A DNA stretch of 64,000 nucleotides from Tetraselmis striata (lineage: Eukaryota; Chlorophyta; Chlorodendrophyceae; Chlorodendrales; Chlorodendraceae): contig VCJN01002412.1 of assembly GCA_006384855.1 (NCBI GenBank), positions 105,787-169,786 on the forward strand, written 5' to 3'. Position numbers and translations under genes: made by a program. Positions 705 through 56,640 of the stretch are shown one piece after another. A model generated the notes under the pieces. It worked only from the letters and a program-made list of their open reading frames with translations. It did no database searches and had not been told where the DNA came from. Numbering within the stretch: the first letter of the stretch is position 1; every line of letters starts with the position of its first letter.

Positions 705-5473
<4,769 letters not shown>

Positions 5474-16374: not shown

Positions 16375-16399
16375 ATTTCAAAGTTGAGTCTGGTTTTGC
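16375..16399 (-). repeat. Repeat B2 (25 bp), outer end of the tyrosine-recombinase element
   Basis: The copy of B1 at the far end, separated from A2 by about 93 bp. A diverged version ends the second element copy near 43710-43733, which supports this as the true terminus. Confidence 0.8.
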
Positions 16400-16492
16400 C
16401 AAAAAGGTCTCACAGGCTCTTTTACACGGACAGGAGCCGAAATTGGCAGGAAGGTTAAGTGAGTAAAGCGTGGCGGGAAAACGGAGTCACGG

Positions 16493-16694
16493 GGCCGCTG
16501 CGTGTAACGCAGCGAAAACTGGAAGATGGCGACTCAGCAGCTGTTATGGCTGCTTTTTTTTTAATGTCTAAGGATTACTCGTGCTGCAACGAAAAAAAGG
16601 GCGTAACGACAGGTGCCTAGTTCCCGTACCACTGAGCAGCACTGTAGCCGAAAAGCGGTTACTTAGGGCGGAAACCGTATGAACAAGTTTAGAA
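16493..16694 (-). repeat. Repeat A2 of the tyrosine-recombinase element
   Basis: Direct repeat of A1, with a T-rich insertion of about 30 bp near 16540-16570. It abuts B1 with a gap of one base, as expected for a B1-A2 junction. Confidence 0.85.
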
Positions 16695-18343
16695 CATTTC
16701 AAAGTTGAGTCTGGTTTTGCTAGTGTTGAGTGAACGGAGACAGCGGTGGATTGACGGAGAAGCGGTAGCGCCAGGTCTTGAAGTGGGCACCGGGAAGGCC
16801 ACCGCTGCGGAGTCTTGTTGGACTTGGAAGTGGCGGAGGGGCGCGATGTGACCGAAGAAGAACCACGCGCCAGGCGAAGGAAGGACGTTGGGATCGATGT
16901 AGTCCAGAACGACGTCGGAGTTAGTGGCCCAGCCGCCTTGGTAGCGAATGTGGGACAGTGGAGCTCCGATGGCGTTAGCAGCAGACGCTGCTCCCTTGCG
17001 AAGGCTGTGTGAGGTCCAGGAAGTGCCGGCGGAAGGGGCAGCACCGACAAGACGAACGGCTGCATAGAGCCAGTCCGACATTGTGGCGGCGGTTCAAGAA
17101 TCGGACTGCTCGCTCGGGGTGATCGCCCAGAAGTTAGTTTCAGCCAAGGAAACAGGAACCAGGGGGGGCAGACTGTACGTGGTCGACGAAGTGGTGCAGG
17201 AGACGCGCGATGCGGGGGTGCTCTGACACTGGAAGGAGCAGTACGCGCAGGGTCGCCGGGGCCTCGTCGACCAGCGCGGCCTTTCTCGCGGTACACCTGC
17301 ATGGTAATGTTGTAATCGTCGACATGCATATCCCGCACTCGGCAGGACACGCAAGTAAGTCCCCTGGCAAAGAACATGAAGTTGACAACCGAGGCCACGA
17401 GGGCTCAAAAGTTGTACTGATACTCTGGGATGGGGGCAGACATAATCAACTCTGCCTGCTCGACGAAGCTGTAAGCGATATCAGCCGGCAGAGGGACTCG
17501 CAAAGGGGCAGCCTCTAGCCGGCGTTGCCGTAGCATCAGCCCACGACAAGCTGCAGTAAGGTGCAGGCTGTCCTTGGCGATTGGGTTGAACTCGAATAAC
17601 GTGTTGATTACGGACGGTAGGGTTGCGACGACTTAGCCCCAATGTGCCCACGCTCACAAACAAAAGCAACGTACCGGACGACAGTAGCGATGGTCGCCTC
17701 CAGCGGGCTGGTGTTCTCCGAGTCGTGGCAGAACTCCGCGAACTGATGAGACAATTTGCCGGCGTAACTCTTGAGTGTATGAGCGGTGAGGGAGCTGGAG
17801 AGTAGATCGAGGGTCCGTTGTCCCAACTCGTGTGAGCCAAACGCACCATGCAGCCGAGACCGGAGTGAAGCAGCCCAAAGGGCAACAACTTCTGGCTCGT
17901 CAATTACATAAGTGCGGCGCTTGGCCGAGAGAGTAACAGAAGGTTGGCTCATGTTAGCAAAGTACTCGGTGGTAGCAGTCACTTAGGTTTTCGGCGGTTG
18001 GCCGGTAGTTGTTGGACGGGTTTGCCGCATCACCAATACGGGTTTGCGGGGCTAGGTTCAGGTAGGAGGGCCGCCCCGCGCGCCCTTCGCGCTCGTAGCG
18101 CATGTCACGCGCATGACGTACACGCGCGAAGCTTGGTCGTTGCGAACCGGTTGTAACACACAGTGTGACAACCGACTGACGCAGCGATGATATGGTATGG
18201 GAGGCGGTTTGTTGCGCCGTCATGCGCAGGTGTGCGGATGGTTGAGCCGCACTTGGCTGTAGCTGTAAGAAGCGCCGCACCGAGGAAGGTCTAAATGAAG
18301 TCTGTACGGAGGGGGGGGTATGGTCCCGACACAAGGCGTTCAT
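16689..18343 (-). pseudogene. Tyrosine recombinase of the element (frameshifted)
   Basis: DNA strand-exchange enzyme of DIRS-order elements, here inactivated. The coding signal runs through several frames: 18343-17954, 17982-17608, about 17608-17405 (ends in TGA), about 17398-17140, and 17081-16689. The N-terminal core-binding part includes RTLDLLSSSLTAHTLKSYAG. A first catalytic region reads FMFFARGLTCVSCRVRDM, with a candidate catalytic Arg. The catalytic C-terminal box contains HSLRKGAASAANAIG (the HxxR motif), YQGGWATNS (the H/W position) and VVLDYIDPN (candidate nucleophile Tyr). In the second copy the region before the core-binding domain is in one frame with it, so the intact protein probably had an N-terminal extension of about 110 residues. 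Confidence 0.8.
16696..16720 (-). repeat. Repeat B1 (25 bp) of the tyrosine-recombinase element
   Basis: Identical over 25 bp to 16375-16399 (both start ATTTCAAAGTTGAGTCTGG on the + strand). It overlaps the last codons of the recombinase frame. Confidence 0.85.
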
Positions 18344-18437
18344 CCCGTCGTTGAGCTGCTCAGGTTCGCCTCGCGGCGGTCACCAAAAGGTGGCCTCGCA
18401 AAGCGCCAGCAGCTCCGACGAAAGGCGCCCCACGCCG

Positions 18438-19332
18438 TCACTCGTGCTCACCTTCGCGGCCACGCCCGCGCCCGCCACCACGCCCACGTCCACGCCCTCG
18501 TCTTGCAGCCGCCGCCGCCACTCGAGCAGTAGCGGTTGCTTTTGCGTTGCTGGCAATTGTCGCCTTGAAGACGCGACGCTCGTAGTCCTTCATGAGGTCC
18601 CCAAAAATCGCAGAGCCTAGATGCTCAGAAGCGGGCTTAAAATGTTGGGCTCGCAGCACGCCCAGAACGCCTTGATCACCGTGCACACTCTTGACCTCGT
18701 TAAGCCTCCGTAGGAAGGTAAGGCCAAACGAAAACGAAACGCCTTGTCGATGGCTTCGATGTGATTCCGAGCACGCGCGAGGTAGGGGGTGAATTACTTG
18801 ATTTGCAGCAAGGACGTAGGTCATTAGCTTGTCGAGAGCTACGAAAAGCGCGGCCATGTGGGCGCCGAAATACGACATCGAAAGATACTCCTCCTGAGCC
18901 GGCGGACGCCGGTCATCTTGCTTGAGGCACTCGTTCGTTAGGTCGGTGCTCAAGGGGGAAGAGTCTAGGCACTCGGCTTACCGGTCGAACGGCCTTGTAA
19001 CTCGGCATGGTAACGGACTCTGCTCGTTGCGACGGCTATGGCACCGCGAGGTAGTCGTCCTCGTCACTCACGGATTTTGCTCCAACACGGCCGCTCTGGG
19101 ATGGCTCTAGGAAGTCGGGGCGCACTGCAGCTCCCGCGCCGCATGCCGGCTGTCCCGCGATGCGCTACCCGGAGACGAAACCATGTTCCCCACAACCACC
19201 AACAACACGGTCACGAGCCGTCAACTGAGCCAACAATGTTGCAATCTCGCGCAGCAATGTAGAATGGGCCTTCACGTGTGCTTGTAGTGATTCGAGCGTC
19301 GGCTCAACGACGGGTTCTTCTCCATCTGACAT
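18438..19332 (-). pseudogene. Gag-like ORF of the tyrosine-recombinase element (broken)
   Basis: It starts at ATG 19332 with an acidic, leucine-rich helical segment (residues ESLQAHVKAHSTLLREIATL), stops at 19165, and resumes in another frame at 18953-18438. The C-terminal part has a helical core (FLRRLNEVKSVHGDQGVLGV, then EHLGSAIFGDLMKDYERRVF) and an Arg-Gly-rich tail (RGRGRGRGGGRGRGREGE) likely to bind nucleic acid. No zinc knuckle is seen. The same core and RG tail recur at 42600-42895. A gag-like role is inferred from its position upstream of the recombinase and from the RG tail. Confidence 0.6.
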
Positions 19333-19440
19333 GGTAACGCACGGACGTATGGATGAGAATATCACACACGGGTGGCGAGCCGGGTGTGGTCTTGAACAAC
19401 CTGGGGTAACCTTGCAACAGGTTACGAGACAGTTTGAACA

Positions 19441-19612
19441 TCGCTGCGTGTAACGCAGCGAGAACTGGAAGATGGCAGGCTCAGCTGTTATGTCTACTCG
19501 TGCTGCACCCCAAAAAGGGCGCAACGACAGGTGCCTAGTTCCCGTACCACTGAGCAGCACTGTAGCCGAAAAGCGGTTAGGGAAAGGGAGGAAACCCCAT
19601 AAACAATTTTAT
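19441..19612 (-). repeat. Repeat A1 of the tyrosine-recombinase element
   Basis: About 170 bp, strongly similar in the same orientation to 16493-16694. Shared blocks include CGCTGCGTGTAACGCAGCGA at the inner end and long identical stretches around 19520-19577. The outer end (19578-19612) is more diverged. Confidence 0.85.
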
Positions 19613-26405: not shown

Positions 26406-27931
26406 TCAAGAAGCATTGCGCACATCCACCGGCGCCGCGTACTTGTCGAGACGTACAGGCTTTGCCCTATTGCAGGGCGCAAAGTTTCCGTAGGGCTGCT
26501 TCGCAGCGCATGCCCGCGGGCGCACCGGCACAGTCCATCGGCCTGGGGTCATGTCCCAGCAGGTCCGGATGGCGAGCAGACGGTTGAGCGCATCTCCAGC
26601 GTTGCACCATACTTGCACACGTTGGGGATATATCTCTTGGATGTTGGCTACGCTGGGCGCATGCCTGGAGGCTGCCCATGCATCCATCGCAGCAGTGGCG
26701 TTGCCAACAAGGTCGGCCACCTGAAAGGTCAAGTCGAAGTAGTCCGCGGCCATACGGGTGAGGCTGCGAAGAGGGCCGCCGTCAGGCCACAGACCAAGGC
26801 AGTAGCCGTGCTTCTGCCACTCGTGGTTGGCTAAGCCGCAGAGCGATGCGTATCCATTGCGCACAGCGGGATCCAGCCGGCGGACGTCCATGCTCTCCGC
26901 ACTGAGGCGGTGCCCCTGTGGGAAAGTGGTGGTGTACTCCACGGGCTCCAGCGGCAGATTGAGCGATCCGGTGGACGCAGGACCCGAGCAACAGGCCGGA
27001 TAGCCGTCCACGTAGTTTGGCCAGAGGCCGTGCACTGTTAGGGTATTTGCAACACGCTGCATCAGGCACCTGGCGCAGCGTGGGAGCAGAGCGTGCTTGG
27101 AGTCATATGGCATTGGTCTGTGCACTGGAGAACAGGCAACTAAACACCGACCCATTTATAAGGCATCGATAAGCTCAGTCGAGGAGATACAGCAATATCC
27201 GTACTGGACAGTGATGCCTCTAAATCACCTGGTCCTTTTCTAAGTTCTCTCGCCCCCCCCCCCCCCCCCCCCCAGCCTGGAGCAGAGGGCCGCTATCCGC
27301 GAGGCGAATAAGGTTTGCACACTGCGTAAAGGGGTTATGAGAGTTGCACGCGCAGATCTTCGCGGCTGCGACACCTAGCGCTACCCCTGGTGACACTGAT
27401 CCCAGCGAGTCGTACGCTCGGATTCGCTGGGCGATCCGCGACTCCTGCCTGCCCGGGACACTGTACCGCGTCGCCCGCGTAGTGCACCGAACGGCCTACC
27501 GGAGAGTCAGGCGAATAGGTTGTCGACTATCCTTCCGACGATGGAGGGCCGCGCAGTCTGACAGCGATGGGTGGTAACGCGCAGCGTGTGGAGATTTATA
27601 AGGGGGAGAGAGGGTCTCACTGCGTTCCAGCGGGGAAGCGCTGCACGGCGTGGTGAGACACTGTGGCATCCACGCCTGCCTCCAGCAGCCGGCAGTACTC
27701 TGGCACGAACAAGTGTTCCAGCAGCAGAAAGTCCCAATCGCGAGGTGCCGACGAGCGTCCCTGCGCTGGGCAAATGGCGACGCAGTGTCCGGAGCCATCA
27801 AAGCCACCCGGATAGTCTGCGCCGTCCGTCAACCTAATGGACCGCCCGTACAGGTAGGCGCCCTCGACCTCGCGAGAGACGGCGGTGGCCAGCAGGAACA
27901 TCAACAGCGCGGGCAGCAGCCGGAAGAGCAT
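26406..27931 (-). CDS. Secreted RNase T2 family ribonuclease, 2 exons
   Basis: An acid endoribonuclease that cleaves single-stranded RNA via 2',3'-cyclic phosphates, expected in the secretory route, vacuole or outside the cell. Exons 27931-27621 and 27069-26406 join in phase (donor GTGAGA, acceptor CCAG) to give about 324 residues. A clear signal peptide covers residues 1-25 (LLPALLMFLLATAVS). The first core strand reads WDFLLLEHLFVPEYCR. Active-site segment CAS I is TVHGLWPNY, with His117. CAS II is HEWQKHGYC at 186-194, with Glu187, Lys190 and His191. All catalytic residues of the family are present. Many Cys residues fit disulphide bonding. The C-terminal extension after about residue 290 is Arg/Ala-rich. 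The intron (27070-27620) contains a 21-base poly(C) run (27253-27273). Confidence 0.92.
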
Positions 27932-31332: not shown

Positions 31333-33671
31333 ATGGATTCAGGGACAGGGCCGAGGGAGCGGCTCGTGGCGTGGGCGCTGGGCGGGGAGGGCGAGACGCG
31401 GCGCGCGATGGCGCTGCGAGAGGTGGCGCTGCTCTGCCGTGGGACCCCACAAGACGCCGGCGCGGACCCGCTGGTGCTGAAAGTAGTGTGTGCACTGGTG
31501 GAGGAGCTGGCTGTAGCTGATGAAGCGAAGTCCGAGCTCGCAGCGGAGTCGCTTGCTAAGTTCGCGCGCGGCGGCCAGACGGCTCTCGACACGATGGTGC
31601 GCAGTGCCGCCGCAAAATACTCCGGATTTACCTTCGCCACCCTCTGCTTCAGCCTTTCCCCTTCCCCATACCCAATATGCCCAGCCTGAGCGACACTCAC
31701 TCCCGGCTGATAACCTTAGAGCCTCGGAAAACCTCTTGGGGAGGGGTGGCATCAGTCTCCTACTGCTTTTGGATAAAGCCCGCCCAAGAAATCTCATATC
31801 GATTTTATTATGAAGAGCTGTCCAGCATATTTTTAAGGGCCCTCATCACACAGGGATAAGTATCTATGTTTGCTATGTCTGTGATTGCTGGTATCCCTCA
31901 CGGCAGTGTCAGAAGGGCTAGCGTACACAGCTGGGCGTGCCTGACTTAGGAGGTGCTGCGCCCCAGGTGGCTGCCAAGGCCATCCCGGCGCTGTTGGCGA
32001 TGCTGGCGGCAGACGAGCACAGTGGGGCGCCTGCGGCGGGCCGTGCGCTGGCGCTGCTGGCGTCGTCCAGGTCGGAGGTCACGGAGGGGGCGCTCGTCTG
32101 CAGCGGCGCCCCTATAGCGCTGCTCGGCGTGATGGTGAGCGACAGCGCATTGGACGAGACGCGTGTGGCGGCAGCGCTGGCGGTAGCGGATCTGGCAGCC
32201 AGCGACCGCGTGTCCACAACACGGGAGCTGCTGCGCGGCGGCGCCGTGAACACGCTGGTGGCGCTGGTGGGAACGGGTGACGCGTGCGGGGGGGAGGCGC
32301 TGCGTGCGATGGCGTGCCTCACTGGCGGGCAGCAGGGGGTGCGGAACGAGTTTGTGGCGGAGGGCGTGCTGCCGCTGCTCTTGATGGTGCTGGCGTGGGG
32401 GAGCGAGGAGACGGAGGCCCATGCCGCATGGACGCTCGCCAACTTGGCCGCTGACGATCAGCACTGCCGCGAGGCGCTGGTGGAGGCGGGCGTGCTGCCC
32501 TCGCTGCTGACCATCCTGCGCACACCCACCCGACCAGCTGCCAACCGCTGCCAGGCGGGGCGCGCGGTTGTCAACCTTGCCGCTGGGGCGCCCGCCACCA
32601 AGCGCGCGCTGATGGATGCGGAAGTTGTGCCTGCGCTGGAGGTCTGCCTACAGGTGCGCGAGGCGGCACCCCTTGCACACGCTGGCCGCACGGGGTTGCT
32701 CACAATCGCGCTCACACACTCCCACCAAGCAGGGGATCCAAGTTGGACACAGTCACACCGCTGCAGCACAGAACGTGGCTGACCCTAGTGTATGAAGAGT
32801 ACATCCCGATCTTTCCTTATAACTCCACGGCACCAAGAATACATCTTGCACATACATATGGCATACATACAATAGCATCCATGCACACATACATATGTAC
32901 ATACATACTCACATACATACATGCCTAAACACAACGTTGCAAAGGCGCTTCACATGAATTCAAAGCGTCTTTCCCCTAAACCGTCCATTCCCCGCTCTGC
33001 CATGACCTTCTCCTGTATTCCGCCAGGCGGGAACCCCGGAGGACGTCCAGGAGCAGGCGGCCGCGGCCGCTGCTCAGCTGGCGACGGGGGAGGACATGTT
33101 CCGGACGTACCAGGAGGAGATGCAGCCGCTGCAAGCCTCGCTGCTCGCCTTGCTGGCCCAGCCCGCCTCCCCCGCTTGCAAGCACGCCGCCAATGCAATC
33201 GAGAACTCGCCGCGAGCAGGTTCCACCCGTACGCCCCGGCCGGCGACCCCGAAGACAATGATGAGTTTGCCATTGCAGTGTTGCCGCCCTTGCTGGGCGC
33301 CATGGCCTGCCCGCATGCGAGCTCTATCAGCGCAGTGGTTGGCGCGCTGGCGGCAGTGCGACCGGGCCAGGCCCGGCCCCTTTGTGGCCCACCGCTGGCA
33401 GCTGCGACGGCTGTGGCCGGCCATGCTGAGCTCAGGACGAGCTGGTGCGCCCCGCCGATCCATCGCTGCCTTTTTAAACAGATTTAGGTTTTGCGACTAC
33501 CGCTACATATAGAGGTGGCGACTATTAACTGTAACGAGTATAGCGCGCTAGCGAATTTAGTTACCTCGGGAAGTCCTAGCTCCCCCTCTATTTCAAACCG
33601 ACCATGTGCAAATAACATGAAGGCTGATACCTTCCGGCCAGGGCGATGATCGTTTGCACACACACACACAA

Positions 33672-42439: not shown

Positions 42440-42893
42440 AAGTAACTCGAAGATATCGTGGGCGTGCCCGTACGTTGCGCGTGCACGCCGCACATCTGCT
42501 TGCGGTAACGTGGTCAAGCCCGTACAGTCTCGTATACGCGGCGCGTCTCGCGCGCCCATAGCAAAGCACTCGTAGCCACGGCCGACACCTCGGCGCGAAC
42601 CTTCGCTTTCGTCTAGCCTTCATGCAGAGGCTTTACGAGGTCAGGCGTGTGCACGGTGACCAAGGTGTTGTGGACGTACTGCGAGACCAACATTTTCAGC
42701 TTGCCGCCGAACATCTGGGCTCTGCGATTTTCGGGGACCTAGAAAGGACTACGAGCGCCGCGTCTTCGAGGCAACGGTTGCCATGAGCGCAAAAGCTACC
42801 GCTACTGCTCGGGTGGCGGCGGTGGCCCCAGGACGAGGGCGCGGACGTGGGCGTGGCAGCGGTTGCGGGCGTGGCCGCGAAGGTGAGCACGAG
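42440..42893 (+). pseudogene. Gag-like ORF of element copy 2 (frameshifted)
   Basis: It aligns with the first copy: FMQRLYEVRRVHGDQGVVDV against FLRRLNEVKSVHGDQGVLGV, and EHLGSAIFGDL in both. A frameshift at about 42740 leads into KDYERRVFEATVA and the RG tail (RGRGRGRGSGCGRGREGE), stopping at 42893. Confidence 0.7.
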
Positions 42894-43042
42894 TGACGGT
42901 GTGGGGCGCCTTTCGTCGGAGTTGCTGGCGCATTGCGAGGCCACCTTTTGGTGACCGCCGAACGGCGAACCCTAGCAGCTCAGCGGCGGGATGAGCGCCA
43001 TATGTCCGGACCGGACCCTCCCACCTTATTTAGACTTTATTT

Positions 43043-43612
43043 AGACCTTCCTCGGTGCGCCGCTTTTTACAGCTACAGCCGGATGCGGCTCAACCATTGG
43101 TACACTTGCAAATGGCGGCTCAACAATCCGCCTCCCGTAATATCTCATCGCTGCGTCCGTCGGTTGTTACACTGCGTGTTACAACTGTTTCGCAACGACC
43201 AAGCTTCGCGCGTGTACGTTACGCGCGTTACATGCGCTACGAGCGCGGCGGGCGCGTGGGGCGGCCCTCCTACACGAACCTTGCCCCGCAAACCCGTACT
43301 GGTGATGCTGCAATCCCGTCCAACAACTACCGGCCAACCGCCGAAAACCCAACCGCCGCCGCGAAATATTGTGATAAAATGAACCGGCGCAGTGTTACTC
43401 CGTCGGCCAAGCGCCGTACTTACGTAATTGACGAGCCCGAAGATGTCTCCCCTTGGGCTACTTCACTCCGGTCTCGTTTACATGAGGCGTTCGGCTGAGA
43501 CGAGCTAGGACAGCGGACCCTCGACCTACTATCCAGCTCCCTCACCGCGGAGACGCTCAGAAGCTACGCCGGCAGACTGTCTCAGTTTGCGGAGTTCTGC
43601 GTTACACGCAGC
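43043..43612 (+). pseudogene. Tyrosine recombinase N-terminal half, element copy 2
   Basis: One open frame (to 43498) carries the N-terminal extension and the start of the core-binding domain (SAKRRTYVIDEPEDVSPWAT). After a TGA it continues as ELGQRTLDLLSSSLTAETLR. The catalytic HxxR...Y region is deleted. Confidence 0.75.
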
Positions 43613-43733
43613 GCCCCCCCTTGACTCCGTTGTAACCTCCACCCTTTCACTCAACATTCCTTCCCATTTCGGCTCTTGTCCGTGTAAAACCCAGACTGCG
43701 CGACCTTTTTGGAAAACCCAGACTCAATTTTCA

Positions 43734-44344
43734 AATCAATCCATAATCGTACTGTGTAATAGTGTGTTACTATTTATGACGCTTATTTCGACAGCATAGA
43801 CATCATTTCGACAAAATAACATGGTTTGGGTCACACCCCCCTCCATTTTGAGCCCCCCCTCTGGTTTGCTTGCAATCATTTTCTAGTACGTTAGGTACTG
43901 CGGCACACTGTGTAATTCATTGTGACATGTGGCATACACTTCCAACAACAACGCGATGCACCATGCCTCTCCCCCATCCCAACTGCCTATGCGAAGCCAA
44001 TAACATGAGGACCGAGGCGGGGGTGGGAAAATTTTGAGATAACAAGCGTTGAGTAGTGCCCCGGCGACCTAGCAGAGGGCACCTGGCAGTGCTGCGGGCT
44101 TGGTGCGGCTGTTGTAGTGATGTTTTGGACACTAACTCTGTTGACAATCGTCCCGGCAACGCATGAGCGGCCGGGCGGTGCGCTGCGGCTGCGGTTCCAT
44201 CGTTCCATGTAATGATTTCGCAGCAAGTTCAGCGTGCAACATGCATCGCCGCTTGTTGCGTCGAGCTGTTGCCCCGCCAGCCCTTTGCACATGCCGACAG
44301 CATACCCACTGGGCGATGTCCCGGCGACGCAGCGACCGTGCGGT
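43734..44344. other. Spacer between element copy 2 and the satellite
   Basis: No gene recognised. Overlapping open frames on both strands at 43917-44410 show no motif. Confidence 0.4.
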
Positions 44345-46440
44345 GCTCTGCGGCGACGGTTTCAGCACTGGTTTCGGAGCATTTTTTGGAGCTGCGTTGT
44401 TCCCGGTGAGCATTCCGTGTGTGCCCCCCCCCCCCCCCCCAACTGTTTACGTGTACTGATACGTAGTCATATATATAGTCTAGCGATCCCCAGCGCGATT
44501 TTGCGTACTTTTAGGTTGGTGGTGTACATGCACTGCCATATTGTGCGGTAAACACTGCGGCGTACGGAGCGGCACCAAATATATACTCGGATAGAAATCG
44601 CCACGTTTCGGGCTGCAAATCATACCATGTGCTGGCTATATATATAGTCCACTGTGCCACCATGATTTGAGATGGAATTCTAGCCACCATACTGGCCAGC
44701 GTCCGGGCGTTGCGGCGACGGTTTCAGCACTGGTTTCGGGGCATTTGTTGGAGCTGCGTTGTTCCCGGCGAGCATTCCGTGTGTGGGGGGCCTAGCCCCC
44801 CCCCCCCCCCCCCCCCCCCAACTGTTTGTATGTACTCATATGTAGTCATATATATAGTCTAGCGATCACTAGCGCAAGAACAGATTCTGCGCACTTTTGG
44901 GTTGGTGGGTTACATGCACTGCCATATTGTGCGGTAAACTCTGCGGCGTACGCTATGAAGCGGCAGCAATATATACTCGGATAGCAATCGCCACGGTTCG
45001 AGCTGCAAATCATACCATGTGCTGGCTATATATATAGTCCACTGTGCCACCATGATTTGAGCTGGAATAGCCACCATATTGGCCAGCGTCCGGGCGTTGC
45101 GGCGACGGTTTCAGAACTGGTTTCGGGGCATTTGTTGGAGCTGCGTTGTTCCCGGCGAGCATCCCGTGTGTGCCCCCCCCCCCCCCCCAACTGTTTGTAT
45201 GTACTCATATGTAGTCATATATATAGTCTAGCGATCACCAGCGCGATAACATATTCTGCGTACTTTTGGGTTGGTGGGTTATATGCACCGCCATATTGTG
45301 TGGTAAACACTGCGGTGTACGGTATGGAGCGGCAACAACTATGTATACTCGGATAGCAATCGCCACGGTTCGAGCTGCAAATCATACGATGTGCTGGCTA
45401 TATATATTCCATTATGCCAACATTATTTGAGCTGGAATAGCCACCATATTGGCCAGCATCCGGGCGTTGCGGCGACGGCTTCAGCACTGGTTTCGGAGCA
45501 TTTGTTGGAGCTGCGATGTTCCCGGCGAGCATCCCGTGTGTGCCCGCCCCCCCCCCCCCCCACCAAACTGTTTGTATGTACTCATATGTAGTCATCCAGC
45601 GAAGCGTCGATTTTTCGGCGGTGAGCTTTATTGCCGTACGGGTATACCCGTATATATAGTGCAGCGGATCAGGCCTATAGGTCCATGACTAAAGCGCTTA
45701 TCTACTGGAATGTACTACTAAGTGCTATAATCCACCCACCCGCCCACCCACCCGCCCACGGTCCTTAATTACACAGCCGTCCGATTACGATCTCACGGTT
45801 GGGAGGCTATGAGTACTGGTACTCGCTACTCGCTGCTGGTAATGGAAAAAAACTATGGTACTTCAAAGCGTTGGCAATGCGAACGCTCGCTGCTGGTATT
45901 GGTACTCGCTACTCGCTGCTGGTACTGCTGGTATTGGTACTGGTACTCGCTACTCGCTGCTGGTAATGGAAAAAAAACTCGGGTACTTCAAAGCGCTGGC
46001 AATGCAAACGCTCGCTGCTGGTAGCGACTACTTCAAAGCGATGGCAATGCAATTCATGGAATTGTAGGCCAGTGATATAGAACCCCTTCTTTTAAAATTT
46101 TCTGAAAAATCGACGCATCGCTGATTCAACTGTCAAGTTACTTCATATATATAGTCTAGCGATCACCAGCGCGAGAACAAATTATGCGCACTTTTGGGTT
46201 GATGGTGGTATAAATGCATTGCCATACTGTGCGGTAAACACTGCGGTGTACACTACGGAGCGGCAGCAAATGTATATTCGAACAGCAATCGCCACGGTTC
46301 GAGCTGCAAGTCATACCATGTGTTGGCTATATGTAATCCCCTATGCCACCATGATTTGATCTGGCGGGATAGCCACCATATCGGCCAGCATCCGGGCGTT
46401 GCCGTGAGATTTCAGTGCGATAGTTGGTTTCGGAGCAGCA
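44345..46440. repeat. Satellite array, unit about 370 bp, with internal poly(C)
   Basis: Units begin with CGGCGACGGTTTCAGCACTG or a close variant at about 44351, 44713, 45100 and 45470 (spacings 362, 387 and 370). Each unit has a poly(C) run after GTGTGTG, then CATATATATAGTCTAGCGAT, CATTGCCATATTGTGCGGTAA-type and CGAGCTGCAAATCATACCAT-type words. The fourth unit is interrupted after its poly(C) by about 550 bp of other sequence (45590-46140), after which the unit resumes and decays at about 46440. Poly(C) length differs between units. Confidence 0.9.
45810..46070. repeat. Minisatellite of TACTCGCTACTCGCTGCTGG-type units
   Basis: A tandemly duplicated block of about 120 bp within the interruption of the satellite array. 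It has the words GGTACTCGCTACTCGCTGCT (three times), TACTTCAAAGCG (three times) and GGCAATGCAA/GGCAATGCGA. Confidence 0.85.
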
Positions 46441-50044: not shown

Positions 50045-50814
50045 CCAAGGACTTTATCGTTCCACCTAACGGAAACGCGGAGCCTGTGCATGGGAACCGG
50101 TCGTGACGACGACGCCATGGTGGTGCGCAGGCGCTAGTGTGTGAGAGTTGGCGGCCAACATAGGTTGCGGGCGGGCGCTGGAAGTGTGATGAGGAGTGGT
50201 CGTCAGTCGATATCAGGCAGCTGAAAGGTAGCTAGGTTTGCATGCGGGCCCCCCCCTCCCTTTCCACGGATGACCTATGCCAGGTCATTTCGTCGGAGTG
50301 GCCTTCCTGCTGGAAGGCTGGAAGGCTGGGCAAGCACGGTGGCAGCAGCGGCGGCGGCGCAGGATAAGGACAAACGGGAGGTGTACATGGGGCGGTGGAA
50401 GGCTGTATACTGCTTAACGTACTAATTACAAAACTTTCGCAATTTACAAAACAACCCCCCCCCCCCCCCCCCCCCCCCCCCTTTCCACGGATGACCTAAA
50501 CCAGGTCATTTCGTCCGAATGGCCTTACTGCTTCTCCACTGCCTGTCGTCTCATTTTGAATCCTATGACAACGATCATTATTCGTACCAGAGTCCTGCTC
50601 TCGCGCGCCGCTCCGCGTGCGCAAGTATGTACGCGCAATACCCGAGGATACAGCAAGACCATTAAAACTTAGGATTATCTTACTTTTATTAGAATCGGCG
50701 GTACCTGCCGCGCTCGCATTCGACGACGCCCATCCACCAGCGGCCCACTCAGCCGCGCCCGTTGCTGCGTTTCACAACTGTCTTCTCCCTTGTCGCGGAG
50801 CCGTAGTGTCTGCC
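50045..50814. other. Spacer with a duplicated 50-bp motif upstream of the DUF4336-like gene
   Basis: It contains the direct repeat pair at about 50260-50310 and 50482-50535, the second directly after a 27-base poly(C) run (50455-50481). It also contains the presumed promoter of the downstream gene. An in-frame ATG at 50617 would extend that gene. Confidence 0.5.
50260..50535. repeat. Direct repeat pair with internal ATGACCT...AGGTCAT inverted repeat
   Basis: Both copies read CTTTCCACGGATGACCTA, three variable bases, CAGGTCATTTCGTC, then a diverged GGCCTT.CTGC. Each contains the 7-bp inverted repeat ATGACCT/AGGTCAT, and each follows a C-rich run. Confidence 0.8.
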
Positions 50815-53433
50815 ATGCCGTCGACAACGTGGCAGCTGCCACCGGTAAGCGGGGGCGCCGCGTCGCTGGAAGCCCGCACAGCGCGCGCCCGTCCTCGGCC
50901 GATAACCCCTAAAATCGGTGCGCCAGCATGCCAAGGAGCGACCCTTGCGCGCTTGGGCAGCGCGCAAGGCTGCGGCAGGCACCAGACCAGGCGTGTCTGC
51001 ACCCAGGCCGTGGCAGCCGAGGAGGCCGGCGGGGGAAAGCCAGGGACGGGAGCGCGTGGTGCTGCCCCCAATGCCGGCGTCATCGCGGAAGTACGCCTCG
51101 GTGACCCCCTCCCCTCCATGTCGAGCTATGGCCTGTTTCCCGAAATGAATCCGGGACAAGCCTGGCTGCTAGGCCCCTTCATTCCCGAAAGATCCCCCGT
51201 CTGCCTGGGCCCTAGCCAAGCAGATACGGGGTTGGCTAATGCCGGGAGCCCGCCGCCCTGTTCGCAGCTGCTGCCGCCCTTCTGGGAGCGGGAAACCACG
51301 GTGGAGCGCTTTTGCGATGGTGTGTGGATGTTCCGCCAGCCGATGGACCTGGGCGCGGGCGATGTCGGGATGCGCATGACGGTGGTGAAGCTGCGGGACG
51401 GCACGCTGTGGGTGCGGCGGCCCGCTCTCCCTACGGACTCCACCTGCACGCAGCTCAGCCCAGGGCGCCACCGCGGCTTCTTGGCCTGCCAAGCCACATC
51501 CCGGTCATGTGTGGGCCTGTTGAACCTGCGGGCCCCACCTCGCTCCGCTGGGAGGACCACGCTCATCTGCAGCGTTGTGGCTGCGCACGCCATGGGTGGG
51601 CCCAAGCCCAATCCCGCCCCGTAACGCCATAACCAAGTGTGACACATGCGCATGATGCTGTCATGCCCGCAGCACAAGCCGGCATAGTGCCATTATTTTG
51701 TAGCAACGGACACAAGCGAAAGTAGCACAGGCCATTAGCGCCATCTATGCACCATCCATTGCCTATGGCTCATAAAGGATGCCCAGCCGGCCGATTGTTG
51801 ACACCGCCCTTGATGCCGCCATTTGCTCGGACCCACGAAACGCATTGGCCGACCTCGGCGAGTTGATAGGGACGCTGCACTGCAGCAGAAGTTATCCGCA
51901 GTTGTCACGAATGATGCCCATTTATGCAGGATGCTTGAAAGCTATTTATGCCTCAGTATATTGTTGCTGACTGTGCCACGCCTGAATATGCCTCATGCCT
52001 CAGCTCTAAGCTCATGTATGCACAACCCTGGCGCGCACCACGCCTGCGCTGGCTCACTGACCGTGACAATCCGGGACAGGTGCACTCCCCGGTGGCGCTG
52101 ACGGACGAGTGCCGCACCGCGCTCCGGAGCCTCGGCGGCCGCGTGTCGCATGTGGTGGTTCCCAGCCTCAGCCCGCAGCACTGGTACGCCGCCACCTCCA
52201 TCGCTCTTCTGCCAACCGCGGCCAGCGCTGCATTGAGCCCCTTCCCGCCCTCCCGTTCCCGGGCAACCGACACCTCTGATAGAGCGGACCGCCTGCAGGA
52301 TCTTTGCGGCCGTGTATGCGCGCTACTTCCCGGGCGCCACAATCTGGGTGCCGCCGGGTGAGGCCGCGCGCCACTTGATACTATGGCATAGCGCCCACCG
52401 GGGGGGGCAAGGCCAGGGGGGCGCTCATCTCATGGCGCCCCGCTGCCCGCTCGCCGGCAGGGCTGCTGGAGATGCGGGAGCGGATGCGGCTGCTGGAAAA
52501 CATAGGTGTGCCGGAGCTGGCAGAGCTGGCGGATGCGCGCCCGCGCGTGTTGGGCGCCGTGTCGCCGCCCGCGTGGCGTCAGGACATCGGCACTGCGCTC
52601 TTCAGCTGCCCCATGTGGGTGGAGGCCGCCTTTTGCGTGCTGGACCACGGCGTGCTGCTGACCTCTGACCTCTGCTTTGAGGCCGACAGCGACCCGCGGG
52701 CCCGCTCCTTCCTGGACCGCCTGAGATCCCTGCCGCTGCAGGTACGCCGGGCGCATGGGCGTGGGTGGGCCCCCCGAGGGTGGCGGGAATGGACGGCAAC
52801 CATGCGCAGCCCAGCATCAGGGCAGCCAACTCGCCAGATACTGCCAAATATGGGAGGCAATGGCGCCCTGCCACAATGTCTTCTACCGCCGCCGCCGCCC
52901 CCGGAGCCTCTGCTTGCACGGCCACCCCCCTATCGAAATGGCTCGCGCCCCCTACACCAGAGCCGCTACTCGCACAGCCTCCACGCCACTCGCAAACCCT
53001 AAAAACACGCTAGCCTGAGCACCCCTCCACCCCCCCCCCCCCTTCCCCCACAACCAGGCCATGCTCGTGGTCGGGCGCATGGGCGGTCCGCTCGCATACC
53101 CCATCTTCAACTTGAACAAGGAGGTGAGGCGGCCCCTGCACCAAGAGCCCCTCCCCCCCCCCCCCCCCCCCATCTGTCCGCTCGCCCCGCCTTGTGCTTG
53201 CTTCCCCGTCCTGCCGCTCATCCCATGCTGCCCCCCCCCCCCCCCCCCCCCCGGAATGCGGTCAGGCGGCGCTGGCGTGGGTGATGCAGATCACAGAAAT
53301 GAACTTTTACGCCGCCATCCCGGGGCACTTTGACGCGCCCATCTACGACGGCAAGCGCAAGTTCATCGAGTGCTTTGAGTACGTGCTCAAGTGGGACACG
53401 CGCGGCAGCAGCTATGGCAGCGACGACTTTTGA
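50815..53433 (+). CDS. DUF4336-like protein, 6 exons
   Basis: Function unknown. The sequence resembles the DUF4336 family found in algae and cyanobacteria, which I recall as related to the metallo-beta-lactamase fold. Predicted exons are 50815-51411, 52080-52183, 52299-52357, 52461-52741, 53058-53123 and 53266-53433, with all phases matching, giving 424 residues. Family-like segments in order are GVWMFRQPMDLG, RMTVVKLRDGTLWVHSPVAL (across the exon 1-2 junction), HVVVPSLSPQHW, YARYFPGATIWVPPG, TALFSCPMWVEAAFCVLDHG with VLLTSDLCFE, and a C-terminus FYAAIPGHFDAPIYDGKRKF. The N-terminus from ATG 50815 is Ala/Arg/Pro-rich and could be a chloroplast transit peptide (RRVCTQAVAAEE). An upstream in-frame ATG at 50617 would add 66 residues. 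Introns 4 and 5 contain poly(C) runs. A pseudogene copy lies at 58965-59969. Confidence 0.82.
53231..53252. repeat. Poly(C) run of 22 bases just before the last DUF4336-like exon
   Basis: It ends 13 bases before the predicted acceptor (GCGGTCAG, exon at 53266), so it sits at the polypyrimidine-tract position. Another C run of about 18 lies at 53153-53170 in the same intron. Confidence 0.95.
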
Positions 53434-54841: not shown

Positions 54842-56640
54842 CTACTGCGGGTATCTGATCACTGTGCACATCATCTTCCATGCGACCTGCGCTGCTGGCT
54901 CGCGCGTCACCTGTTGGGTTCTGCAGTGTGCATATGCTGGGCACATCAGACAAGTGTGCATGTGCCTGAGCACATCACCCACCATTCTGAATGGGGAACT
55001 AATCCAGCAATTTAACTGAGACCAATCATGGTGCATAGAGTTAACACCATGAGTGCCAGGGCACCACAACTGAGAAAACTGCAGTGTGCATTTATGCTGC
55101 TCGCAAAGAGGTCAGCATTGTGAGGACCCCATCGGGCATCCAGCATCTGAAAATATCTACTGTGTAACACCCAGTCACTAGTGTCCACATATTTGCTGAT
55201 AGCGTCAGTACGGACGTTCCTCTCTCTGGGAAACTAATTTAAATCTAGAGTGATATCATACTTTACACACAGAAGGTGTAATTCAATATGTAGCCAGATC
55301 ATTAATAGGGATAGATCTGCTACCCTTCCCCACTATCCATAGGAGGTTCTGGTTATCAGTCTGGATCAATACCAGTTCGCCGACACAAAATGTAGTAAAA
55401 GACAGTATGCATCTGATAACTCCTGCCAGCTCTCCAAAGATAGAGGACTGAGCTCTCTCCCGCAGAGTGAAGAACTCATGGGCGATAAGTTGATGGGAAT
55501 CGGACAGGCCATTTATCAAGAGACCACCCCAACCAAATCCACCGGCATCAGTTTCCAAATTGATAGCCACCACATGCTGGCGGGGCCAGATTCTGCCCAC
55601 ACAGGAACTTCTGTCTAATCCTTTCCAGAACAACAGTTCATTCCTAGCTTCAGGTGTGAGAGTGACCCAAGAGGACCAGGACCACAATGATTTTTGAACG
55701 CCATAAAGATGTCGGGTATATAGCTGGGCCAGAGGGCCCAAAGCCAGCCTCATGGAGATAGCTTGGCCGATGATACTAGCCAACTTGCGGACAGACACTC
55801 TGCCTCTGCGGGCATACAGCAATTCAGCGATGCCTTGCTGTAACCTATCCCACCGGTCTTCTGGCACAGATAAAGTATTGGTGGCAGAGGCAACCAAGAA
55901 GCCCAAATGCCTGAGCAATTGAACGGGAGCTGGGGTGCTCTTCTCCATATTAAGACACAAACCTGAGATATAATTCTTCTGCTGAGCACTGATGCATCAG
56001 CAGCTGTGGGGGCATAGTATGAAAAATAATCCAGATAGGGTAGGACATGAATACCATGCCTGCGCCAGTATCTGGCCAGCTCAGACATGGTCTGAGCAAA
56101 GGCATAAGGGGCCACTTTGAATCCAAATGGGAAGCTTTGGAACATATTATACTTGCCCTTCCACTGGAAGGCGACATAAAGTTTTGCAGAGGGATGGAAC
56201 TCAACATGACTGAAACCAGATTTCAAGTCGAAAGCGATCATGTGATCACTTTTCAGCATAGTATCTTTGAGGTCTATGAGACCCTAAAAATTGAACTTAG
56301 GGCAATCAATTGCCTCATTGGCATATTGCATAACTATCAATTCAGCGCTTTCAGGACTACCCACAGTAGGTTTTTCAGATGTCTCAGACACATGGCCAGC
56401 AGCCACCATCTCAGCAATACACTCATCCACAAATTCTGTATTCTGGTGGGCCGTTTTGAGGTTGGGGAACTCAGCTAGGGCAGGAGGGGCAGTCTTCCGG
56501 CGAAGAGAGAAGCCATCTTCGATCCATCCCACGACCCATGAGCGATGGCGGCATATAGAACGCCAGAAAGCGAGTGACGTCTTCAGAGTACCAACTCGGA
56601 ACAGGGGTGTGCCATGCTCCATCTCAAATCTGTCTTGAGG
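54842..56640 (-). pseudogene. DIRS-type reverse transcriptase/RNase H (broken)
   Basis: The reading moves through frames 56622-56284, 56259-55750, 55960-55283 and on to about 54842. Visible motifs are AEFPNLKTAHQNTEFVDECI (N-terminal RT region), MIAFDLKSGFSHVEFHPS (motif A region), FPFGFKVAPYAFAQ (motif B region) and VLPYLDYFSYYAP, where the YLDD-type motif C has lost its second Asp. The RNase H residues are present in NLETDAGGFGWGG, IFGELAGV and IQTDNQN. After a TGA at 55283 the family continues with RERNVRTDAISKYVDTSDW, RWGPHNADLFAS and WCPGTHGVNSMHHDWS. This order fits DIRS-group RT-RNase H. The frameshifts, stops and mutated motif C make it inactive. Confidence 0.85.

Follow-up and report, generated by a model that had tools for sequence, protein, structure and literature searches.

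A split-repeat element family of Tetraselmis striata with gag-like and tyrosine recombinase genes and no reverse transcriptase

To our knowledge, the gag, reverse transcriptase (RT) and recombinase genes of tyrosine recombinase (YR) retroelements travel together. The 64,000-nucleotide stretch of the Tetraselmis striata genome analysed here (the window) raises the question of how an element can do with two of these genes: positions 16375 to 19612 hold a gag-like gene and a YR gene between split direct repeats, with no RT. A preliminary description of the locus had taken this absence for a property of the whole family, which would move either with a polymerase supplied in trans or by recombinase action alone.

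The sense strand of the window copy is the minus strand, along which A1, the gag-like frames, the YR frames, B1, A2, X and B2 follow one another. The left terminal repeat A1 lies at 19441..19612 (-), and a blastn match extends it to 19618. It is followed by a decayed gag-like gene (18438..19419, -), split into two pieces that no longer share a frame (19419-18952 and 18956-18459) and are 73% and 76% identical to the gag frame of a well-preserved copy, L069, with a TGA stop at 18438-18440. The decayed YR gene (16779..18437, -) is broken into four pieces in several frames, and its HxxR and Y region is still legible at 16779-17081; the C-terminal frame (16689-17081, -) matches PF00589 with E=0.0019, below the Pfam cut-off. 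Then come B1 (16696..16720, -), the adjoining A2 (16493..16694, -; blastn match from 16496), the A2-B2 spacer X (16400..16492, -), which is the counterpart of a 93-bp X in L069, and the right terminal repeat B2 (16375..16399, -; GAAA, then flank). The split repeats are thus present as first described, B1 and B2 being identical at 25 of 25 positions and A1 and A2 aligning in collinear blocks (19442-19476 with 16496-16530, 97%; 19495-19519 with 16576-16600, 84%; 19512-19579 with 16594-16661, 99%). Identity between A1 and A2 is 72% over all columns and 87% over the best 118 bp. Compared with L069, the whole copy shows 82.6% identity over 3,269 columns and is, to judge from the L069 proteins, which align only piecewise and in several frames, dead.

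The anatomy of the family is clearest in L069 (C317:21300-25300), which reads A1-gag-TGA-YR-B1A2-X-B2 over 3,223 bp from A1 to B2, a length completely filled by these parts. Its A1 and A2 are identical over 186 of 186 bp and lie 2,916 bp apart, and B1 and B2 are identical over 28 of 28 bp. The gag frame is open for 322 codons (291 from the first ATG) and is followed, after one in-frame TGA, by 553 open codons of YR. The gap of about 95 bp previously placed between the two genes is absent from well-preserved copies, where a single in-frame TGA separates gag from YR. This TGA is present in all 38 junctions read, which were selected by pattern and include the window copy once more as L009. The YR frame of L069 matches PF02899 above the cut-off (7.8e-08) and PF00589 below it (0.0015), and the motif HSLR...W...Y is conserved. 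An ATG at YR codon 72 is conserved in all 11 intact frames, and pN/pS values of 0.30-0.34 in the stretch ahead of it are in line with some translation there.

The genome assembly (224 Mb, 2,903 contigs) contains many such elements. In a search with X-A2-B1, 40 of 1,945 candidates were scored, and all of them matched; the YR and gag searches were scored for the best 150 of 4,243 and of 4,586 candidates, respectively. Whole-genome pattern counts with at most two mismatches gave 1,405 gag-TGA-YR junctions, 1,203 ORF-B1 junctions, 1,143 gag-internal matches, 1,116 B1-A2 junctions and 1,002 X-B2 junctions, and the reversed-pattern controls gave zero for each. The recurrence of the B1-A2 and X-B2 junctions rules out that the A and B repeats are chance neighbours. 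Diverged copies will have been missed, since the patterns came from young copies, and the family can be put at roughly a thousand copies from these counts, which do not suggest any large excess of solo A-X-B units or of permuted copies.

The same data bear on the missing RT. The count of direct gag-TGA-YR junctions (1,405, against 1,143 for the gag-internal pattern) and the lack of an RT in all 29 gag-YR pairs uphold the view that its absence is a family property. These pairs are the gag matches that have a YR match at most 15 kb downstream, both taken from the lists of the best 150, and the presence of an RT was excluded by spacing in 25 and by reading in four. The gap measures 1,359-1,361 nt in 24 pairs, 1,240 nt in one and 4.7-8.1 kb in four (L110, L111, L112 and L113), where the gag is directly followed by a YR of its own, cut short in L113. 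The distance from gag to B1 tells the same: 61 of 68 values fall at 1,999-2,173 nt, a single value at 2,337 nt and six above 5 kb, and none of the 68 lies near the extra 2 kb expected from an RT. This set comes from 86 of 100 listed gag sites (of 1,143) and 100 listed B1 sites (of 1,203); 18 of the 86 gag sites have no listed B1, and the six distances above 5 kb were not read individually. Together, the junction counts and the two kinds of spacing rule out a local deletion as the cause of the missing RT.

No RT-bearing member was found from the side of the proteins either. Among the 120 listed of 346 YR relatives, RVT_1 occurs only in P0081, and among the 120 listed of 335 gag relatives it does not occur. 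P0081 was rejected as an RT-bearing member and is taken as a fused gene model, because its RVT_1 is N-terminal, lies ahead of gag and has a Ty3/Gypsy look. Neither frame of L069 shows a methyltransferase (MT, Dam) domain in Pfam at E up to 5. The same 120 YR relatives comprise 119 with Tetstr1 names and one (P0002) from a JGI contig of 5,779 nt, and no match was found in viral contigs.

The window itself contains two further sequences of interest. A second copy at 42602..43736 (+), located at 42.4-43.7 kb in the preliminary description and regarded there as comparable to the first, does have the same direct gag-YR junction and is otherwise a truncated relic. It consists of the end of gag, the TGA junction and the start of YR to about 43597, joined to an A2-X-B2 end (43597-43736, +). 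It lacks the 5' part, the C-terminal half of YR, B1 and most of A2, since the matches begin inside gag, end inside YR and then jump to A2-X-B2. The other is a separate RT/RNase H relic at 54953..56628 (-), with matches to RVT_1 (2.1e-09) and RT_RNaseH (8.5e-06) and 28-40% identity to the RT of L070. It is of the kind found in PAT-layout elements of the T. striata genome and lies outside the gag-YR element, for which this type of RT is a possible helper. Among 30 RT loci similar to this relic, none has a family gag or YR, and 11 have a piece of a PAT-type YR.

Both genes of the family are under selection. For pairs of intact frames with dS above 0.1, dN/dS is 0.10-0.13 for gag (median 0.12; 5 of 10 pairs) and 0.12-0.26 for YR (median 0.16; 34 of 55 pairs), with YR dS reaching 0.29. 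These values concern open frames only (11 YR and 5 gag, broken copies being left out), and the pairs are non-independent. Constraint on YR is strongest in codons 201-340 (pN/pS 0.05 and 0.08) and 471-553 (0.07), corresponding to the SAM-like and catalytic parts and including the HSLR...W...Y motif. The intact gag and YR frames thus show purifying selection. As the RT-less state is common to the old window copy and to young copies, and dS reaches 0.29 at low dN/dS, this selection would have acted after the RT was gone. The name gag is itself putative: it rests on position, on a helical and RG-rich make-up and on selection, homology being undetected. The L069 gag frame matches no Pfam family at E up to 5, its RG-rich tail is the only part that matches PDB chains, and its fold prediction is poor (pLDDT 52).

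Further information comes from the repeats. The reverse-transcription model of PAT and Ngaro elements (PMC6681497) implies that A1 and A2, and likewise B1 and B2, are nearly identical at insertion. In 27 copies, mean A1-A2 identity within a copy is 0.956, versus 0.919 (SD 0.004) for shuffled pairings, and none of 5,000 shuffles reaches the former value (maximum 0.935). The copy's own A2 is the closest to its A1 in 13 of the 27, at least one other copy being closer in the remaining 14; the outliers are L008, L020 and the window copy, where 25, 24 and 26 copies, respectively, come closer to A1 than its own A2 does. Part of the signal could be due to subfamily structure or gene conversion. The 27 pairs are 25 of 35 fetched A1 regions together with L069 and the window copy; left out were L003, whose A1 runs past the contig end, L024-L026, with a partial A1 (by hand), and L002, L005, L013, L014, L017, L029 and L030, which have no A1 of 150 bp.

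Insertion occurs at a short degenerate core and usually without target duplication. The left flanks have A or T (W) at -2 in 26 of 26 cases, C being absent at -3 and G at -1, and the right flanks have C or T (Y) at +1 in 23 of 23 (the window copy, L003 and L024-L026 are left out of these sets). The comparison of insertion sites that had been proposed gave a flanking repeat of at most 2 bp in 22 of 23 insertions, the exception being L032 with a 13-bp repeat. L007 and L011 occupy two copies of the same host repeat at points separated by 9 bp, and in each of them the site used by the other is intact and shows no duplication or loss.

Some copies are arranged in arrays that resemble products of circles. 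The C2249 array consists of head-to-tail units with a period of 2,916-2,918; its part L073 has repeats at 99.86% identity, joined by B1-A2 junctions without X at a period of about 2,917. At C764, three gag matches lie 3,203 bp apart, and the L109 junction joins B2 to A1 minus its first 16 bp. Positions on C348 suggest a further array of about 2.9 kb. The arrays fit circles with B-A junctions, and they could also stem from unequal crossing-over or from DNA circles.

The family is probably a lineage of semi-autonomous YR retroelements that have retained gag and recombinase and rely on RT supplied in trans. A PAT/Ngaro-like cycle is indicated by the layout with its paired repeats, by the selected gag-like gene and by the high copy number; from this we infer RNA-mediated copying, and since the element has no RT of its own, the enzyme would have to come in trans. 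The transcript of the element would be packaged with the element's own gag and copied into cDNA by the RT of a different element, such as a member of the co-resident PAT-layout family. Both ends would be rebuilt with the internal B1-A2 junction as template, the cDNA would circularise to give a B2-A1 junction, and the YR of the element would recombine the GAAA/TG junction (the slash marks the junction) with a chromosomal site having W at -2 and Y at +1. Spliced copies were sought as evidence of an RNA intermediate and none were found: two splice-junction patterns derived from gene models had no match at up to three mismatches, and the introns in question may be annotation artefacts.

A representative of the potential helper family is the C132 element. 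It has the PAT layout over 5,856 bp, with A repeats of 201 bp (99.5% identical), B repeats of 68 bp (100%) and a 5-bp overlap of B1 and A2. Its gag frame contains a zinc knuckle, and a frame of 696 codons encodes RT/RNase H/Dam (Dam: PF05869, 1.2e-06). A third frame has no Pfam match at E up to 5 and is called YR on account of its location, its motif and its similarity by profile to the family YR. RT frames of 696 codons number at least 22 among the best 150 of 781 candidates, one of them with a stop inside the match. The YR profile of the family aligns with the profile of the C132-type YR over 286 columns (E 9.8e-07, 19% identical). Against a role as helper, the C132 element is unlike the family in several respects: the repeats of the two have no nucleotide similarity, the gags have no similarity (E 0.26), and the YRs find no match by single-sequence BLASTP (best E 5.0). 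The junctions of the two, GCGAAAAC/TGTAGG and CTTTGAAA/TGATCT, have a likeness too short to weigh.

Of the two modes of movement named at the outset, a polymerase in trans and the recombinase alone, we favour RT in trans. Cryptons are thought to move without reverse transcription, and in a DNA-only cycle of this kind the YR would excise or copy double-stranded circles and reinsert them, the split repeats being recombination sites that are homogenised in circles and arrays. Such a cycle would account for an element without RT, for the strong constraint on the catalytic region of YR with its HxxR-type motif, for the head-to-tail arrays, be their units full-length or of 2.9 kb, and for the lack of spliced copies. 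It would leave the conserved gag without a role, and excision alone does not raise copy number. Moreover, DUF3504 is not one of the three Pfam families matched at E up to 5, which counts only against animal-type Cryptons. We regard this alternative as unlikely, because Cryptons, as described in PMC3212892, have no long direct repeats and a very low copy number in most hosts, unlike this family with its roughly one thousand copies and its long split repeats. A bolder form of it also seems doubtful. In it, an RT-free gag-YR transposon would use its split direct repeats as recombination sites to form circles of full length, of 2.9 kb and possibly of 305 bp and to insert them again, gag would have a part in the DNA cycle, and the PAT/Ngaro arrangement of repeats would either predate reverse transcription or not depend on it.

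Another rival explanation is that an RT-bearing, autonomous master sharing gag, YR and ends with the family exists and is rare, too diverged for the patterns or absent from the assembly. Room for it is left by the scoring of the best 150 candidates only for YR, RT and gag, by the gag sites without a listed B1 and by the six long distances; we nevertheless hold it to be very improbable, as no intermediate distance (about +2 kb) appears among the 68 or the 29 measured and none of the 30 RT loci matches. Many non-autonomous elements arise as deletion derivatives, and this common origin would make gag and YR mere passengers after a recent loss of RT from an autonomous element, which is least credible of all in view of the RT-less state of old and young copies alike, the YR divergence at low dN/dS between intact frames and the lack of an RT-bearing sister among the 30 RT loci.

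In the literature searched, which included PMC4157794, PMC8226300, PMC3212892, PMC6681497 and PMC8547959 and was not exhaustive, we recognised no description of a selected gag-YR lineage without RT. With gag and recombinase kept under selection in about a thousand copies and no RT, two halves of the cycle are separated. It thereby becomes possible to test whether the recombinase can act on the split repeats by itself or reverse transcription is required, whether unrelated YR elements can share RT, and how DIRS-order elements and Cryptons might give rise to each other.

The closest layout is that of PAT-like elements, including C132: their split direct repeats are likewise arranged A1-ORFs-B1A2-B2, the first ORF is gag-like and YR comes last, and they share the GAAA../TG junction form and, in most copies, insertion without target duplication. 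They differ in that the family lacks RT, RNase H and Dam/MT and measures 3.2 kb versus 5.9 kb, in that its gag has no zinc knuckle and no detectable similarity to theirs, and in its remote YR (19% by profile). Ngaro elements, according to PMC8547959, also have split direct repeats, in the order A1-[ORFs]-B1A2B2, and their YR contains the His-X-X-Arg motif and Tyr; repeats and motif are common to both, whereas the RT and RNase H of Ngaro, which come without MT, are missing from the family. With Cryptons the family has in common YR as the only enzyme and the absence of RT, and it differs from them in its 186-bp A and 28-bp B repeats, its gag-like gene, its high copy number and the lack of a DUF3504 match. 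Because it has neither the RT of PAT and Ngaro elements nor the restriction to short direct repeats of Cryptons, we file it under neither group. TOC1 of Chlamydomonas is a YR-element derivative without RT that presumably moves in trans. SIRE, the short derivative of VIPER in trypanosomes, is made of VIPER ends, has no RT and is presumably mobilised in trans, as stated in PMC6681497. Both are RT-less derivatives of YR elements; the T. striata family instead retains gag and YR under selection.

A splice-donor-like site, GAAG|GTGAGC, lies immediately upstream of the gag stop in copies of the family, for example at window positions 18438-18450, and gene models place splicing at this site of the junction between gag and the tyrosine recombinase frame. 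Copies carrying the predicted splice junction were looked for and none was found.

Among the genomic copies, the well-preserved L069 is adjoined by a stretch (L069:2-352) that is 74% similar to the start of its own A1 (left terminal repeat) and gag, and which belongs to a relative that has diverged further within the family. At another copy, L032 (A1 region L102), a 13-bp repeat flanks the insertion on both sides, while 22 of 23 insertions show at most 2 bp; this 13-bp sequence is possibly a local repeat.

The window also harbors parts of a Polo-like kinase gene (2125-3687, minus strand, with Pkinase and POLO_box matches), a Ribonuclease T2 family gene (26406-27155, minus strand) and an Armadillo-repeat protein (31922-32782, plus strand), as well as a DUF4336 match (50569-51624, plus strand). 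A tandem array at 44349-45595 repeats 3.3 times with a period of 369 bp, and every copy contains a long run of C residues. Finally, an RT/RNase H relic is present at 54953-56628 on the minus strand; it has a 98% relative at C310, and is 28-40% related to the RT of the co-resident PAT-layout element of this genome.
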